Positions 2,866-20,279 of a stretch of 39,560 nucleotides of DNA are shown here, one piece after another. The translations under genes and the position numbers were made by a program. Source of the stretch: a virus; the IMG/VR virus record IMGVR_UViG_3300034104_006876, positions 1 through 39,560 of that record. One strand, given 5' to 3'. Below the pieces are notes generated by a model, which had not been told where the DNA came from, ran no database searches, and saw only the letters and a program-made list of their open reading frames with translations. Numbering within the stretch: the first letter of the stretch is position 1; the number at the start of each line of letters is the position of its first letter.

Positions 2866-3265
2866 ATTTGATTCAGAACTGCAGAAGCTTGTTGATGCTT
2901 GCGACTATGATACCAAGCTTGCTGTAACCGCGTGGGTTATCTCCCACATTGATGATCATGGTAATGGTGGTGGCTCTTTTCGGTATCTAATCTATAATCG
3001 TCTTAACTTTGGTCCAGATGCCTATGTGCCTCTGTATGAGGCTGGCGGTATGAATATTACAAATGAGCTGGACTATGACGCCATGCGTAATATCGCTGAT
3101 GTCATGCGCGAGGAGAAGATTGAATCAGCAAAGCTAAAGGGTATGGTCGGTCTTTGTGACGAACCTGGTTGCTTTGATTTTATTACCTGTGGTACGCCGA
3201 CTGATGATGGTTATCGCAGCACTTGTAGTGAACACGCTCCGAACCGTGTAAGTTCGGGCCCGTAG
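2858..3265 (+). CDS. conserved phage hypothetical protein, 135 aa
   Basis: Overlaps the upstream membrane gene by eight bases. The N-terminal 80 residues look helical; the C-terminal part carries CDEPGCFDFITCGTPTDDGYRSTCSEH, a short run with four cysteines and a histidine near residues 112-138 of the kind that binds zinc (only part is quoted as a continuous motif: CDEPGC, then C, then CSEH). The stop codon lies inside the acceptor stem and D-arm start of tRNA-Leu, so the mRNA and the tRNA must be alternative products of one transcript. Confidence 0.65.
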   Translation: MPEFDSELQKLVDACDYDTKLAVTAWVISHIDDHGNGGGSFRYLIYNRLNFGPDAYVPLYEAGGMNITNELDYDAMRNIADVMREEKIESAKLKGMVGLCDEPGCFDFITCGTPTDDGYRSTCSEHAPNRVSSGP

Positions 3266-3329
3266 CCCAACCGGCAGAGGCAGAGGACTTAAAATCCTCA
3301 CAGTGTCGGTTCGAATCCGACCGGGCCTA
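3256..3329 (+). tRNA. tRNA-Leu (anticodon TAA)
   Basis: Acceptor GGGCCCG/CGGGCCT, a three-pair D stem, anticodon arm GAGGA/TCCTC with loop CTTAAAA (TAA, reads UUA), T-loop TTCGAAT and discriminator A; no encoded CCA (CGG follows). The variable region is only about five bases, short for leucine but typical of many phage Leu tRNAs. It overlaps the end of the preceding coding sequence by ten bases, and the next tRNA begins two bases after the discriminator. Confidence 0.85.
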
Positions 3330-3330
3330 C

Positions 3331-3406
3331 GGACCTGTAGCTCAATGGTTAGAGCTGGCCGCTCATAACGGTCTGGTTGGGGGTTCGAGTCCCTCCGGGT
3401 CCACCA
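3331..3406 (+). tRNA. tRNA with anticodon CAT (Met, or Ile if lysidine-modified)
   Basis: Acceptor GGACCTG/CGGGTCC, D-arm GCTC/GAGC, anticodon arm GGCCG/CGGTC with loop CTCATAA (CAT), T-arm with loop TTCGAGT, discriminator A and encoded CCA. A CAT anticodon decodes AUG, or AUA after lysidine modification. The GGACC...GGTCC acceptor is reminiscent of Ile2 tRNAs, so the amino acid cannot be settled by eye. Confidence 0.85.
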
Positions 3407-3578: not shown

Positions 3579-4994
3579 ATGAATAGTCAGGTATATTCTA
3601 TGAATCAATCAAATACATTTTGTATCTTACCATGGATACACTTAAGCAGTCGTCCAGACGGCCGAATGCGTATATGTTGCACCGCTAATGCCAGTTCAGT
3701 ATTAGACCCCGATTCCAGTCAAAAAATTGGTGCTGGTTCAATCGGCGTAGTCAAAAATGATGATGGTATTCCAGCAAATTTCAATCATACTACGCTAGAT
3801 GAAGCTTGGAATTCCAGTTATATGAGAAATATACGAAAAATAATGATGCGTGGTGGAAAACCAGCAAGCTGCATGAAATGCTATAAAGAGGAAGATTCTG
3901 GATATCTTAGCAAGAGAAATTGGGAGACTGAATATTGGGGAAAACGATACGATATTGATGCAATAGTAGATGAGACTGATAAAGACGGTAATATCCCGGT
4001 CAAAATTAGATATATTGATTTGAGGCTAGGTTCTAAATGCCAATTGGCATGTGTGATGTGCACCCCACATGATAGTTCAGGTTGGGTAAAAGAATGGAAT
4101 GAGATATTTCCGCAAATTCAAAATAAAAAATTAAAAGATAATAGTCAATGGATCAATAAAGGTAAAATTCATGGTGCCAATTATAATTGGCACAAAAATA
4201 ACCCCAGATTTTGGAATGAATTATTTGACCAGATACCTAATTTATATCAGTTATATTTCGCTGGTGGAGAGAGTCTTATAATAGATGAGCACTATGAACT
4301 TCTTGAAGAATGCATAAAACGTGGATATGCTAATAAGATAGTGCTTCGATATAATTCAAATGCTGTCGAGTGGAGAAGTGATCTTTTTGATCTTTGGAGT
4401 AAATTCAAACAAGTAAGATTTCATTATTCAATTGATGCTTATGGTGAGCAAAATGACTATATTAGATATCCATCAAATTGGAAAAACCAAGAGGAAGTAT
4501 TTTGGAAATTAGATCAAACTCCTAGCAATGTTATTATTACTATTGCCACTACAGTTATGGCAATAAATGTTCCATACATACCAGAATTTGTAAAATGGAA
4601 AATTGAGCAGGGATTTAAAAAAATAAATTTGTGGCCTTTTGGAGCAGGTAGCATCGGTACTCATTTTGCATATTGGCCACCACACTTAAATGTTAAAATT
4701 CTACCTAAACATATTAAAAAATGGGTAACTTCAAAATATGAAGATGAATTCTACCCATGGATAGAAGATAATTGGGACAAATTTACGGGCATAAAAGAAT
4801 TTGGTATAACCAAAGAACAATTTTTATCCGATGAATATGGTCTACCTAGATTTAAAGCTATTATCAATTTTATGAATTCTGAGGATTGGTCGGGTCGTCT
4901 ATCTGAGACAAAAGAATATCTTCAGTTAATTGATAAAACTCGAGGTTTATCATTTGCAAAGACCTTTCCGGACCTAGTAGATTTAATTATCTAA
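3579..4994 (+). CDS. twitch-domain radical SAM protein
   Basis: 471 residues. The radical SAM cluster motif is C154-x3-C158-x2-C161 (CQLACVMC), binding a [4Fe-4S] cluster and S-adenosylmethionine. An N-terminal segment with FCILPWIHL, then RICC (33-34), then CMKC (98-101) is the cysteine-bearing twitch/SPASM-like region seen in phage twitch radical SAM proteins. The substrate is unknown. Two glycosyltransferases follow at 12-base and overlapping spacing, so a joint glycan or peptide modification is plausible (inference). Codon use is strongly AT-biased compared with genes at 9.6-12.4 kb. A second in-frame ATG at 3600, giving MNQSNTFCILPW, is an equally possible start. Confidence 0.8.
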   Translation: MNSQVYSMNQSNTFCILPWIHLSSRPDGRMRICCTANASSVLDPDSSQKIGAGSIGVVKNDDGIPANFNHTTLDEAWNSSYMRNIRKIMMRGGKPASCMKCYKEEDSGYLSKRNWETEYWGKRYDIDAIVDETDKDGNIPVKIRYIDLRLGSKCQLACVMCTPHDSSGWVKEWNEIFPQIQNKKLKDNSQWINKGKIHGANYNWHKNNPRFWNELFDQIPNLYQLYFAGGESLIIDEHYELLEECIKRGYANKIVLRYNSNAVEWRSDLFDLWSKFKQVRFHYSIDAYGEQNDYIRYPSNWKNQEEVFWKLDQTPSNVIITIATTVMAINVPYIPEFVKWKIEQGFKKINLWPFGAGSIGTHFAYWPPHLNVKILPKHIKKWVTSKYEDEFYPWIEDNWDKFTGIKEFGITKEQFLSDEYGLPRFKAIINFMNSEDWSGRLSETKEYLQLIDKTRGLSFAKTFPDLVDLII

Positions 4995-16602: not shown

Positions 16603-17388
16603 ATGGGGTTTGCTCAAACTGTCGATATCGAAAATGAATTTTTACCCGAATTTCTAACACGAAATCAGAAAAAGAGACTAAAAAAACAAGTTCGACAGCA
16701 TAAGCAGCCAAGTAAGGCTCAACCTCAGCAGAATATTATGCAATTACCAAAGATAAATCCCCTAACATCGGGCCAGGCCCGCACCTTTCAGTCCTTTGAT
16801 GATGGTAAAAATCTGATTTTGCATGGTGTTGCCGGCACCGGCAAGACTTTCATGTCGGTTTACCTTGCTCTTAGGGCCGTTCTAGACGGTGATGCACCAA
16901 AACCTGTCGTAATTATTCGATCAGTTGTGCCTACCCGTGACATGGGCTTTCTCCCAGGAACCCAGAAAGAGAAATCCGCTGTATATGAGGAGCCGTATTC
17001 AGCAATCTGTAATGAGCTTTTCAAGAAGCCGGGTGCATATGACACACTTAAGCGCGATGGTACCATTCAGTTTGCCACTACCTCATTTCTTCGCGGCTTG
17101 ACTTTCAGAGATAATATCGTTATAGTGGATGAGTGTCAGAATATGACATTCCACGAGCTGGATTCCGTCATTACTCGCATGGGTACTGGGTGCAGAGTCA
17201 TCTTCTGTGGTGATTTCCGCCAGAGTGACCTTTGGAGAAATGATGAGCGCGAGGGTCTACATACATTCATGTCTGTTATAAAGCACATGCGTAGCTTCGC
17301 GCGCGTGGAGTTTACAAAGGATGACATTGTGAGGTCAGACCTTGTTCGTGAATATATTGAGGCGAAGTTGGAAGAAGGGCTTGTGTGA
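16603..17388 (+). CDS. phoH: PhoH-like ATPase
   Basis: 261 residues. Walker A GVAGTGKT (75-82), Walker B IVIVDECQN (about 175-183), a VVPTRDMGFLPG loop and sensor CGDFRQSD are hallmarks of the PhoH family, an ATPase possibly involved in RNA or phosphate-stress metabolism and very common in marine myophages. The N-terminus (20-45) is a basic Lys/Gln-rich extension. GGGAG lies 11 bases before ATG. The stop overlaps the next start as GTGA, so it is co-translated with the exonuclease. Confidence 0.92.
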   Translation: MGFAQTVDIENEFLPEFLTRNQKKRLKKQVRQHKQPSKAQPQQNIMQLPKINPLTSGQARTFQSFDDGKNLILHGVAGTGKTFMSVYLALRAVLDGDAPKPVVIIRSVVPTRDMGFLPGTQKEKSAVYEEPYSAICNELFKKPGAYDTLKRDGTIQFATTSFLRGLTFRDNIVIVDECQNMTFHELDSVITRMGTGCRVIFCGDFRQSDLWRNDEREGLHTFMSVIKHMRSFARVEFTKDDIVRSDLVREYIEAKLEEGLV

Positions 17389-18053
17389 GATTTGTTCATG
17401 ATTTGGTGACACTACCAGAGCTTACCGCGGTTCAAACAGATCGCGGTAGGCTCTATAACACCCCTTCTGGTGAAGCATATCCTTCAATCACCACAGTTTT
17501 AGGCGCGCGCCCAGAAAAAAAGCGCATTATCGCCGAGTGGCGCGCCCGTGTTGGTGAACAAGAGGCTAATCGTGTGTCAGCGCAAGCTTCTCGGCGCGGT
17601 ACTTCGATTCATACCATGATGGAAAAATACATTGTGGGTGAAGATCCTACAATTGGTGAAATGCCTAACAATGTCACGATGTTTAATTCGATCAGGTCTG
17701 TTGTCGATAAGCATCTTACGCATGTTTATGCAATGGAAGCGCCACTATATTCTGATCGTATGAAGATTGCCGGTAGATGTGATCTAGTTGGCAAGTGGGC
17801 TGGCACAGATTGCATTATTGATTTCAAGACTTCAAAGCGTCTTAAGACCGAAGAGCATATTGATAACTATCTGCTGCAGGCTACTGCATATTCTCTGATG
17901 TTTGAGGAGCTTACTACTCGGGTTATACCCGGCATAGTCATTCTTATTGGTGTTGATGATGAGGTAAAGCCTCAAATGTTTTGTCGATACCGCGACAAAT
18001 ACGTGGAAAATCTATGTGAGGTCATCTTGAACTATCACAAAGGTAGCCATTGA
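17385..18053 (+). CDS. RecB/MGME1-like PD-(D/E)XK exonuclease
   Basis: 222 residues from GTG 17385. The motifs are GTSIH (H76), E118 in MEAPLYS, GRCDLVG (D133), IIDFKTSK (D146, K148) and a downstream YLLQATAY helix with Gln169-like placement. This is the RecB-type nuclease core related to Cas4 and mitochondrial MGME1. It probably processes DNA ends in recombination-dependent replication. Coupled to PhoH. The stop codon overlaps the -35 box of the tmRNA promoter. Confidence 0.85.
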   Translation: MRFVHDLVTLPELTAVQTDRGRLYNTPSGEAYPSITTVLGARPEKKRIIAEWRARVGEQEANRVSAQASRRGTSIHTMMEKYIVGEDPTIGEMPNNVTMFNSIRSVVDKHLTHVYAMEAPLYSDRMKIAGRCDLVGKWAGTDCIIDFKTSKRLKTEEHIDNYLLQATAYSLMFEELTTRVIPGIVILIGVDDEVKPQMFCRYRDKYVENLCEVILNYHKGSH

Positions 18054-18078
18054 CAAATTAGCTACTTTGCTGTATAAG
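18050..18078 (+). promoter_or_regulatory. tmRNA promoter TTGACA-N17-TATAAG
   Basis: TTGACA (18050-18055), 17-base spacer, TATAAG (18073-18078); start near 18085, immediately before the P2 strand GTCATC of the acceptor piece. The same box pair precedes gp32 at 21095. Confidence 0.8.
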
Positions 18079-18079
18079 T

Positions 18080-18149
18080 AGTATTGTCATCGTTGATGGC
18101 GATATAATAGATACTACGGACCGCGGGGCAGTGCCGCGCAGCTCCACCA
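18080..18149 (+). ncRNA. ssrA: permuted tmRNA, acceptor piece
   Basis: The 3' half of a tmRNA placed upstream of its 5' half. A hairpin CGCGG (18122-18126)/CCGCG (18134-18138) with a seven-base loop sits in the T-arm position. CAGCTCC (18139-18145), A and encoded CCA (18147-18149) form the 3' acceptor strand, pairing with GGGGCTG at 18268-18274 of the coding piece (one G-U). GTCATC (18086-18091) pairs with GATGAC (18311-18316) as part of helix P2. The T-loop GGCAGTG is not the usual TTCRANY. The 5' end is approximate. The split form is characteristic of Alphaproteobacteria. Confidence 0.82.
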
Positions 18150-18150
18150 G

Positions 18151-18222
18151 GGCAGATAGGTCTGGGACCCAGTGTGGCTCATAACCACATCCAGCTCGGT
18201 TCGAATCCGGGATCTGCTTCCA
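18151..18222 (+). tRNA. tRNA-like element in the tmRNA intervening segment (anticodon CAT)
   Basis: Acceptor GGCAGAT/ATCTGCT, anticodon arm TGTGG/CCACA with loop CTCATAA (CAT), T-arm CTCGG/CCGGG with loop TTCGAAT, discriminator T and encoded CCA. The D-arm is too short (about 15 bases between acceptor and anticodon stems), so the function as Met tRNA is uncertain. It begins one base after the tmRNA acceptor CCA; RNase P cleavage here would free the acceptor piece. Confidence 0.62.
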
Positions 18223-18230
18223 TATTATGG

Positions 18231-18267
18231 CCGTGACCTCTGCCCTAGGTACGTCACGGTTTTCTTT
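18231..18267 (+). other. hairpin with T-rich tail before tmRNA coding piece
   Basis: CCGTGAC (18231-18237) pairs with GTCACGG (18253-18259), followed by TTTTCTTT directly before the first G of the coding piece. It looks like an intrinsic terminator, but termination would cut off the coding half, so a processing signal is the better guess. CTGCCC in its loop (18240-18245) could also pair with GGGCAG at 18150-18155. Confidence 0.5.
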
Positions 18268-18430
18268 GGGGCTGAAACAGAATCGACGGGTATGGTAAAG
18301 GTTGACCGGAGATGACGGCTAGTGGCCTAACCACTATTGATAAGTGCCAATGACAACGGCTTTGCCGTAGCACTCGCTGCCTAATAGGTAAGCGCGGTTT
18401 GAGGAGCACCGGGCAACAGAAGCTCCTCAC
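18268..18430 (+). ncRNA. ssrA: permuted tmRNA, coding piece
   Basis: Begins GGGGCTGAAACAG followed by GAATCGACGGG, the conserved tmRNA 5' region. The tag frame runs from GCC 18346 to TAA 18382-18384: ANDNGFAVALAA, with the ANDN start and ALAA-like end of alphaproteobacterial degradation tags. A GAGGAGC (18401-18407)/GCTCCTC (18422-18428) hairpin closes the 3' side. No T-arm or CCA follows, which confirms that the acceptor half lies upstream. The RNA would release stalled ribosomes and mark peptides for proteolysis. The 3' boundary is approximate. Confidence 0.85.
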
Positions 18431-18481
18431 CCTACTCAATGTATCCTCTTGACTAGGGCCACAACAGAAGGACAAAACATC

Positions 18482-19060
18482 TTGACGGAAAGGATTATAA
18501 GCGTCGCCCTGGGCGCGCTAGTAGGCGCAGCTTTAGTTATTTTTGGTATCGATATGCTCTATCATTCGGCCGAAGCTGCACCAAGAAACAATCAATCTGA
18601 GGTTAGAGAAGCTAGGATTAGTGTCCCTCAGCTTGATATTGGATTGAATCTAGCTCCGCCGGAGTTTGAAGATCGTATTACTACAAGCCAAGCGGACCTG
18701 CATTGCATGGCCCACGCTATATACTACGAAGCGCGTGGTGAGAGATTTGTTGGTATGCTTGCGGTGGCTAATGTGATCATGAATCGTTCACAGGATCCGG
18801 ATTATCCTAATACGATCTGTGGTGTCACTCGACAGAGAACCCGAAACATTTGTCAGTTTGAATATTACTGCAAGGTCGGTAATCGAGTCCCGCCAGCAAA
18901 TGACCCACAATGGCAAATGGCTAATGATATTGCGATGCATGTCATGTCTGGTAATCTACCTGATATTACAGACGGCGCAATACGTTTTCATGCTATAAGT
19001 GGGTCTTCGCCGCAGAGAAATGCATTACGTATTGGGTCACATTTGTTTTATAGGAGATAA
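18482..19060 (+). CDS. SleB-type cell-wall hydrolase (endolysin) with signal-anchor
   Basis: 192 residues from TTG 18482, chosen because AAGGA (18468-18472) is nine bases upstream; TTG 18449 is an alternative. The N-terminal hydrophobic helix (about 4-26, ISVALGALVGAALVIFGIDM) is a signal-arrest-release or signal anchor. The Hydrolase_2/SleB domain follows: LHCMAHAIYYEARGE with the catalytic Glu, GMLAVANVIMNR, CGV and CQFEYYC. It cleaves peptidoglycan for host lysis. Cysteines could form disulfides in the periplasm. It sits next to the tmRNA and a Kdo synthase. Confidence 0.85.
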   Translation: MTERIISVALGALVGAALVIFGIDMLYHSAEAAPRNNQSEVREARISVPQLDIGLNLAPPEFEDRITTSQADLHCMAHAIYYEARGERFVGMLAVANVIMNRSQDPDYPNTICGVTRQRTRNICQFEYYCKVGNRVPPANDPQWQMANDIAMHVMSGNLPDITDGAIRFHAISGSSPQRNALRIGSHLFYRR

Positions 19061-19063
19061 GTT

Positions 19064-19897
19064 GTGAGTCTTTTTTATGATAATTGTCGAAATGAATTTA
19101 CCTTGAGTGTGATTGCAGGACCATGTGTGTTTGAGTCCAAGCAACATGCGCTTGATATGGCAGGTCAGTTATCTGAAATCTGCAAAGACTTAAATATAAA
19201 CTACATCTATAAGACTTCTTTTGACAAGGCAAATCGAACAAGCATCACATCATATCGTGGAGCTGGGTTTGATGAAGCATTCTATGGGTTTGTGGCCGTC
19301 AAAGAAATGTTGGGGCTTGAAGTTTTGACTGATGTGCATGAGCCGTGGCATTGCGAAACTGTGCCTGCGGATATTATTCAAATTCCAGCATTTCTCTGCC
19401 GTCAAACTGACCTGCTGCAGGCTGCTGCGGCATCTGGTAAACCCGTAAATGTAAAGAAGGGTCAGTTTCTCTCGCCACGTGAGATGGTCAATATCGTGCA
19501 TAAGCTGGAGTCATCTGGTTGCACTAAGGTCATGATGACTGAGCGCGGCACTACATTTGGTTATAACGATCTTGTTGTTGATATGCGGTCGCTTGATATC
19601 ATGCGTGGTAATACTCCAATGAATTATCCTGTCATCATGGATTGCACTCACGCGGTACAGTCGCCTGGTGGTAACGGTATTTCATCTGGTGGTAATCGAG
19701 ATATGGTGCCTGTCATCGCCCGAGCGGCCACAGCTGTCGGTATTGCTGGTGTGTTTATGGAAGTGCATCAAGACCCAGACAATGCACCATGCGATGGTCC
19801 AAATATGCTACACTTAGCCAATTTTAGGTCTGTACTTGAACAGCTACTTGAGATAGATTATGTGGTGAAGACTCATATGCCGTCTAAAGGAGAATAA
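19064..19897 (+). CDS. kdsA: 3-deoxy-8-phosphooctulonate (Kdo-8-P) synthase
   Basis: 277 residues from GTG 19064 (AGGAG at 19052-19056). KdsA landmarks in order are IAGPCVFES (about 17-25), YKTSFDKANRTS (48-59), TDVHEP, QIPAFLCRQTDLL, NVKKGQFLSP, TERGTTFGYNDLVVDMRSL, MDCTHAVQ and GVFMEVHQDPDNAPCDG. The enzyme condenses phosphoenolpyruvate with arabinose-5-phosphate to make Kdo-8-P for lipopolysaccharide or capsule. Length is normal (family about 280), and active-site Lys, His, Glu and Asp positions are kept, so it looks functional. It probably boosts or redirects host surface-sugar synthesis during infection. Confidence 0.92.
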   Translation: MSLFYDNCRNEFTLSVIAGPCVFESKQHALDMAGQLSEICKDLNINYIYKTSFDKANRTSITSYRGAGFDEAFYGFVAVKEMLGLEVLTDVHEPWHCETVPADIIQIPAFLCRQTDLLQAAAASGKPVNVKKGQFLSPREMVNIVHKLESSGCTKVMMTERGTTFGYNDLVVDMRSLDIMRGNTPMNYPVIMDCTHAVQSPGGNGISSGGNRDMVPVIARAATAVGIAGVFMEVHQDPDNAPCDGPNMLHLANFRSVLEQLLEIDYVVKTHMPSKGE

Positions 19898-19898
19898 C

Positions 19899-20279
19899 AT
19901 GAAGCTTGGTAAGGTCTGGGGTGATACAGAGGATCTGTTTACCTCACCCAATATAGAAGTACATCGCATCAATACTAAGGCGGGGTTTCGATGCTCGCTG
20001 CATAGTCATCGCCATCGCTGGAATGGCTTCTATGTAATTAGTGGTATCATCGAAATTCATACTGAAAAGCAATATGGGCTGACAGATGTAACTGTGCTTC
20101 GCCCCGGTGACTTTACTGCGGTGCCACCAAATGAGGTGCATTGCTTTGTCTGCACCCAAGATGCTCAGGCCCTTGAGATTTATTGGCCTCAGCATATGGA
20201 ATCGGTTGATATCGTTCGCAAGGATGTTGGTGGGTTTGTTGCCGCATTAGCTGCTAAGTCGGTTGATGATGCAGCCTGA
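19899..20279 (+). CDS. cupin-domain protein
   Basis: 126 residues, ATG one base after the kdsA stop with GGAG upstream. Cupin motif 1 appears as LHSHRHRWNGFYVISG (HxH at about 35-37, the usual Glu replaced), and motif 2 as RPGDFTAVPPNEVHCF. A metal-binding small-sugar isomerase or sensor role is possible. Tight linkage to kdsA suggests action on a related sugar or as a regulator of it (inference). Confidence 0.75.
   Translation: MKLGKVWGDTEDLFTSPNIEVHRINTKAGFRCSLHSHRHRWNGFYVISGIIEIHTEKQYGLTDVTVLRPGDFTAVPPNEVHCFVCTQDAQALEIYWPQHMESVDIVRKDVGGFVAALAAKSVDDAA

Follow-up and report, generated by a model that had tools for sequence, protein, structure and literature searches.

A T4-like phage probably carries a functional, circularly permuted tmRNA gene of the alphaproteobacterial type, with a tRNA-Met(CAT)-like gene inserted into its intervening sequence (IVS) directly behind the acceptor CCA. 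The phage is represented by a 39.6-kb virus record, called the window below. The permuted gene, its conserved helices, the tag, the exact position of the tRNA insertion and the variable IVS can all be read in the DNA itself and in that of related phages. The tRNA-like gene was overlooked in the first-pass annotation of this DNA and is the most distinctive feature of the locus.

The permuted tmRNA gene

The tmRNA at window positions 18046-18431 is circularly permuted and of the alphaproteobacterial type, with a match far above chance. The first-pass annotation had called for a covariance-model search. The full-length RF01849 model gave 130 bits (E=2.2e-35, gathering score 50) and RF04321 (tmRNA_permuted) 93.6 bits (gathering score 47), while ARAGORN called a tmRNA* at 18057-18475 with the tag ANDNGFAVALAA and two stops. 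The gene order was as first described, the acceptor half (CAGCTCC-A-CCA) preceding the coding half, whose first bases (GGGGCTG) close a 7-bp acceptor helix that includes G3-U70 (18270/18143). The P2 pairing across the two pieces was confirmed, and the predicted frame ending in TAA does encode ANDNGFAVALAA, with a resume alanine, small hydrophobic residues at its end and then TAA TAG. The T-loop sequence GGCAGTG had been considered unusual, which is wrong for this family; the RF01849 consensus is GGCgGUA. The coordinates are collected in Table 1. From its family membership, the transcript would be cut into two mature RNAs, although in some close relatives just 4 nt separate the pieces.

Table 1. 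Features of the tmRNA locus, in window coordinates, and of the nested tRNA-Arg in contig L205
Feature	Position	Strand	Basis or remark
Permuted alpha-type tmRNA	18046-18431	+	RF01849, RF04321, ARAGORN
PD-(D/E)XK exonuclease, upstream neighbour	17385..18053	+	phrog_298 E=1e-60; PF12705
Putative sigma70-type promoter	18050..18078	+	TTGACA 18050-18055, 17-nt spacer, TATAAG 18073-18078; read from sequence
tmRNA acceptor piece	18086..18149	+	RF01849/RF04321 alignments; compensatory changes, 75 viral sequences
P2 5' strand GTCATC	18086-18091	+	Pairs with GATGAC 18311-18316
T-stem	18122-18126/18134-18138	+	Acceptor piece
T-loop GGCAGTG	18127-18133	+	Acceptor piece
Acceptor strand CAGCTCC; discriminator A; CCA	18139-18145; 18146; 18147-18149	+	
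IVS	18150..18267	+	118 nt; presumably removed from mature tmRNA; contents vary among close relatives
Nested tRNA-Met-like gene	18151..18222	+	ARAGORN; anticodon CAT 18180-18182, CCA 18220-18222
Conserved IVS hairpin (GGCCGTGAC...GTCACGGTT) and U-rich tail reaching coding piece	18229..18261	+	-16 kcal/mol, z=-4.1
tmRNA coding piece	18268..18431	+	RF01849/RF04321; ARAGORN end is 18475
5' acceptor strand GGGGCTG	18268-18274	+	Coding piece
P2 3' strand GATGAC	18311-18316	+	Coding piece; tag and further helices downstream
Tag reading frame ANDNGFAVALAA, then TAA TAG	18346..18387	+	ARAGORN; identical tag in all clade members
Cell wall hydrolase/endolysin ORF, downstream neighbour	18449..19060	+	PF07486 E=2e-18
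tRNA-Arg(TCT), intact	L205:4705-4781		RF00005 69.4 bits, above gathering

The upstream exonuclease was used as an anchor for finding relatives, and in all eleven contigs retrieved in this way a tmRNA with the identical tag occupies the identical place. The mature pieces are 85-100% identical to those of the window, and the flanks 59-93%. Compensatory changes support the predicted helices: P2 changes from GTCATC/GATGAC to GCTATC/GGTAGC in one relative (L010). In an alignment of non-redundant viral permuted tmRNAs both sides had changed in 28-29 of 75 sequences at the freely varying acceptor pairs and in 35-41 of 75 at the T-stem pairs. The acceptor ends pair in all 75, with double changes at the free positions; the positions of CTCC and GGGG were set by the search pattern and provide no independent evidence for the pairing.

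The window belongs to a T4-like phage, with genes for a gp32-like ssDNA-binding protein, PhoH, a T4 Gp59-like protein and the baseplate wedge. Its closest cultured phages by the gp6-like baseplate protein, at 35-39% identity, are Methylophilales phage Melnitz (the nearest, 38.7%), Pelagibacter phages and Ochrobactrum phage OC. The tmRNA region gave chance 37-nt matches only when compared with cultured phage DNA. The earlier proposal, that a phage of the T4 kind has a permuted alpha-type tmRNA with its own tag, is supported by the model and ARAGORN calls, the phage genes and the compensatory changes.

The putative promoter overlaps the stop codon of the exonuclease gene, and the pattern TTGAC(A/T) or TTTACA, N17, TATAA(G/A) is kept upstream of the tmRNA in every clade member. 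A promoter scan of the window did not list 18050-18078, as it requires T at the last -10 position. The -10 box is TATAAGTA in the window and TATAAATA in L005 and L006; the latter is also the T4 late-promoter consensus. Downstream, the hydrolase ORF probably starts at the TTG at 18483. It is followed at 19064-20279 by a DAHP/KDO8P synthase-family gene and a cupin/mannose-6-phosphate-isomerase-like gene, which are possible auxiliary metabolic genes. Elsewhere in the window, 3579-4994 encodes a phage Radical SAM/SPASM-domain protein (SPASM above its cut-off, Radical_SAM below), and at 3256-3406 a tRNA-Leu without encoded CCA and a tRNA-Met were called with zero spacer.

The nested tRNA-like gene

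The nested gene begins one base (G18150) past the tmRNA CCA. Its acceptor, anticodon and T arms and its encoded CCA are intact; the D arm is shortened to a 4-bp stem (GGTC/GACC) with a 3-nt loop that has none of the usual D-loop guanines, and so departs from a normal D arm with its tertiary contacts to the T-loop. The gene also has G1-U72 and U73. ARAGORN recognised it, with anticodon loop, T arm and CCA, whereas 20,000 dinucleotide shuffles of the IVS gave not a single tRNA call. The Rfam tRNA model (RF00005), run on the IVS alone, gave 23.5 bits (E=0.0035), under the 29-bit gathering score; when the window was first scanned with Rfam, the gene went unlisted, its score being below the cut-off and its position overlapping the tmRNA of the same clan. 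On account of this score, the shortened D arm, G1-U72 and U73 we call it tRNA-like, and decoding by it is doubtful.

Alignment with three relatives about 91% identical to the window (L005, L008 and L009) breaks exactly at 18149/18222, with the 72 nt from 18150 to 18221 missing. The insert is flanked by two CCA triplets (18147-18149 and 18220-18222), an arrangement that would fit recombination at CCA ends. One other record, L004/L193, which over 8.4 kb differs from the window by one mismatch and one 38-nt gap, shares the insert, and an assembly chimera is therefore unlikely. All other relatives are without the nested tRNA, which makes gain the simplest reading. The closest match outside the same phage was 73% over 60 nt among the matches listed, which include many elongator-Met-like tRNAs.

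An initial pattern for nested tRNAs in viral contigs returned two matches, both ordinary tRNA arrays, which were discarded. In bacterial genomes one exact pattern, which does match the window, gave 0 matches; it covers only that spacing and exact CTCCACCA. A targeted pattern found a second case, in L205, a contig with a T4-type DNA polymerase from a T4-like phage unrelated to that of the window. The permuted tmRNA of L205 is a different one (RF04321 109.4 bits, tag ANDNFAIEGYALAA), and its IVS contains an intact tRNA-Arg(TCT) that begins 17 nt in. This tRNA is 84% identical to the tRNA-Arg of another tmRNA-bearing phage (L192), and a tRNA-Arg(TCT) adjoins the tmRNA in several such phages. With the window insert and the L205 tRNA-Arg, a tRNA has probably entered the IVS of a tmRNA at least twice.

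Variation of the intervening sequence

The tmRNA halves stay conserved while the contents of the IVS differ among relatives. Across the phages that share the tag it takes several forms: ATAT (4 nt; L010 and L012), 5-7 nt (L028, L035, L166, L178 and L179) or a 45-46-nt hairpin (L005, L008, L009, L013 and L014). In L006 and L007 the hairpin is accompanied by a 61-nt segment containing a 57-nt element with a GCCA end, in L011 the IVS is a 76-nt pseudoknot-like element, and in the window and L004 it consists of the tRNA and the hairpin. Most close relatives have the hairpin, which is larger in L123 and L186 and missing from L010, L012, L028 and L035. Together with its U tail it might act as a terminator, but a scan of the window did not list it, and transcription must cross it to reach the coding piece. 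The 57-nt element was rejected as a tRNA relic, since a search up to E=10 gave no match to tRNA and its fold lends no support. An element like that of L011 (4598-4673) occurs in the IVS of L126, in a different tmRNA; the hairpin loop GTGTC could pair with a downstream GACAC in a possible pseudoknot. The L011 element has no Rfam match of its own at gathering.

The survey also covered at least 115 different permuted tmRNA genes of viruses, which were included if ARAGORN recognised them or if the coding piece had a strict motif at its 5' end. Among the matches listed, IVS length spans 4 to 277 nt with a median of 74, and the window gene alone has an ARAGORN tRNA inside. An end-to-end closing helix of at least 7 bp is possible in 60 of 72 IVSs of 40-180 nt, again among the matches listed, compared with 9% of shuffles. 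T-arm-like hairpins with TTCRANY loops stand beside the closing helix in L142, L206, L211, L207/L208 and L209/L210, and are possibly tRNA relics. As tRNAs, the IVSs of L142 and L211 were rejected, with a T-arm only and scores below the cut-off.

Short ORFs of about 30-77 codons lie in the IVS of other phage permuted tmRNAs (L146, L015, L150, L198, L135, L071, L143, L031 and L129). Several of these belong to marine phages, and some of the ORFs are homologous between contigs. For three pairs compared in frame, pN and pS were 0.12 and 0.37, 0.04 and 0.25, and 0.12 and 0.33, and the other frames showed no comparable gap; two more pairs had too few differences or none that were synonymous. These values are suggestive of selection on the ORFs, from small counts.

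Proposed processing and function

We infer that the promoter is used, that the transcript is cleaved and the tmRNA charged, and that trans-translation follows; the same applies to any role of the nested tRNA in decoding. The promoter at 18050-18078 would give a single transcript, which host RNase P would cut 5' of GGGG (18268), and the 3' end of the acceptor piece would be matured to the CCA at 18149. By analogy with known two-piece tmRNAs, pairing in the acceptor and P2 helices would join the pieces. The acceptor would be charged by host AlaRS through G3-U70. An SmpB gene was found neither in the window nor in 13 other phage records, several of which are fragments, so the tmRNA presumably depends on host SmpB, which would deliver it to stalled ribosomes. 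There ANDNGFAVALAA would be added as a degradation tag and the ribosomes would be recycled during infection. A further RNase P cut may fall where the nested tRNA begins, and would then free the acceptor piece and release a third small RNA. With one base between the tmRNA CCA and the tRNA, this cut alone would give no clean CCA; in L205, where 17 nt of IVS precede the tRNA, RNase P would not directly create the tmRNA 3' end. The nested tRNA of the window may be decaying, or may be only a processing module.

That the tmRNA functions and the nested tRNA is passive filler, recombined into a discarded spacer and now decaying, is quite possible, if somewhat short of probable. Such an origin would agree with the freely variable IVS of close relatives, 4 to 118 nt long, with the short D arm and sub-threshold score, and with the distance of the insert from every tRNA of the compared loci, with identities of at most 69%. 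However, the acceptor, anticodon and T arms and the encoded CCA are all intact, and the tRNA-Arg that an unrelated phage has in a comparable position is of full quality.

The intact parts are those read by RNase P (acceptor, T arm and CCA), the reduced part is the D arm, and the tRNA begins 1 nt past the tmRNA CCA. From these features the insert could have been retained as a device for processing: RNase P (and RNase Z) would read the acceptor-T arm and cut the precursor, which would mature the acceptor piece. We regard this as rather unlikely. T-arm-like hairpins beside the closing helix in other phages (L142, L206 and L211) would fit it, as would the frequency of the T-arm-like motif in an unbiased set, 2 of 72 IVSs among the matches listed against 0.02 per shuffled set. 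However, an IVS of 4 nt or a simple hairpin suffices in close relatives, so that no such device is required, and the two T-arm-like cases tested (L142 and L211) do not score as tRNAs.

A fully degenerate back-translation of ANDNGFAVALAA, which does match the window, gave 0 matches in about 85,000 bacterial and archaeal species genomes, and the tag therefore appears specific to these phages. Its absence from those genomes would suit a phage tmRNA that serves mainly as a decoy or competitor of host tmRNA, or that carries a fate-changing tag, rather than one for plain ribosome rescue; the tag-less tmRNA of phage DS6A inhibits endogenous tmRNA in E. coli (PMC11915505). We consider such a role improbable, since the tag frame, the tandem stops and the ...LAA ending are conserved across the clade, as they should be in a normal degradation tag. 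That the gene is a non-functional piece of host DNA, or an artefact of assembly, is hardly credible: although the window is a fragment of an uncultured virus, nothing was found in favour of this reading, and many contigs share the gene's place and tag, with compensatory changes and conservation above that of its flanks.

Relation to known systems

The window gene shares its gene order, the G3-U70 pair of the acceptor helix, the class of T-loop, the P2 pairing between the two pieces, the tag frame and the presence of an IVS with the two-piece tmRNA of alphaproteobacteria (RF01849, RF04321; Caulobacter type). It differs in being phage-encoded, in its tag and in the tRNA-like gene in the IVS, and some of its relatives have an IVS of 4-7 nt.

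Phage permuted tmRNAs are already known, and the window gene is a further member. According to the sections of the Melnitz report cited here, Melnitz is itself T4-like and has a permuted tmRNA of the alpha type (PMC9004378). In those sections the Melnitz gene differs in being reported with a glutamine riboswitch and in another gene context, and they mention no tRNA within the IVS. The same sections give the host of Melnitz as a gammaproteobacterium (PMC9004378). The suggestion that a permuted tmRNA points to the host group is consequently weak, as the host cannot safely be assigned from the tmRNA type.

A tmRNA database paper covering about 12,000 permuted genes reported one tRNA in a tmRNA spacer and called it unique (PMC11915505). 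That case, a tRNA-Ala nested in the IVS of GCA-2688965__sp002688965.2, is the nearest parallel in arrangement; unlike the window gene it is high-scoring, non-phage and not shown to be a presence/absence variant, and it comes from an archaeal-binned, possibly misbinned, genome (PMC11915505). The tRNA arrays of T4-like phages offer another likeness, as the window phage also has several tRNAs with short spacers, but its nested tRNA sits inside another structural RNA gene. As far as the literature searched shows, a nested tRNA that is a presence/absence variant in phages is new, as is the swapping of IVS contents.

We tentatively propose, as a possibility, that the IVS of phage tmRNAs is a genetic cargo slot, with tRNA and small protein genes exchanged within a segment that the tRNA-processing enzymes remove in any case, so that one transcript would give a two-piece tmRNA and a third product. 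If so, phages would have a simple route for gaining RNA or peptide genes without new promoters. Spacers of 4, 46 or 118 nt, or with another tRNA, would then also constitute a natural test of tmRNA processing by RNase P and 3' nucleases. For annotation, tRNA and tmRNA calls must be permitted to overlap if genes such as the one missed here by the first Rfam scan are to be found.
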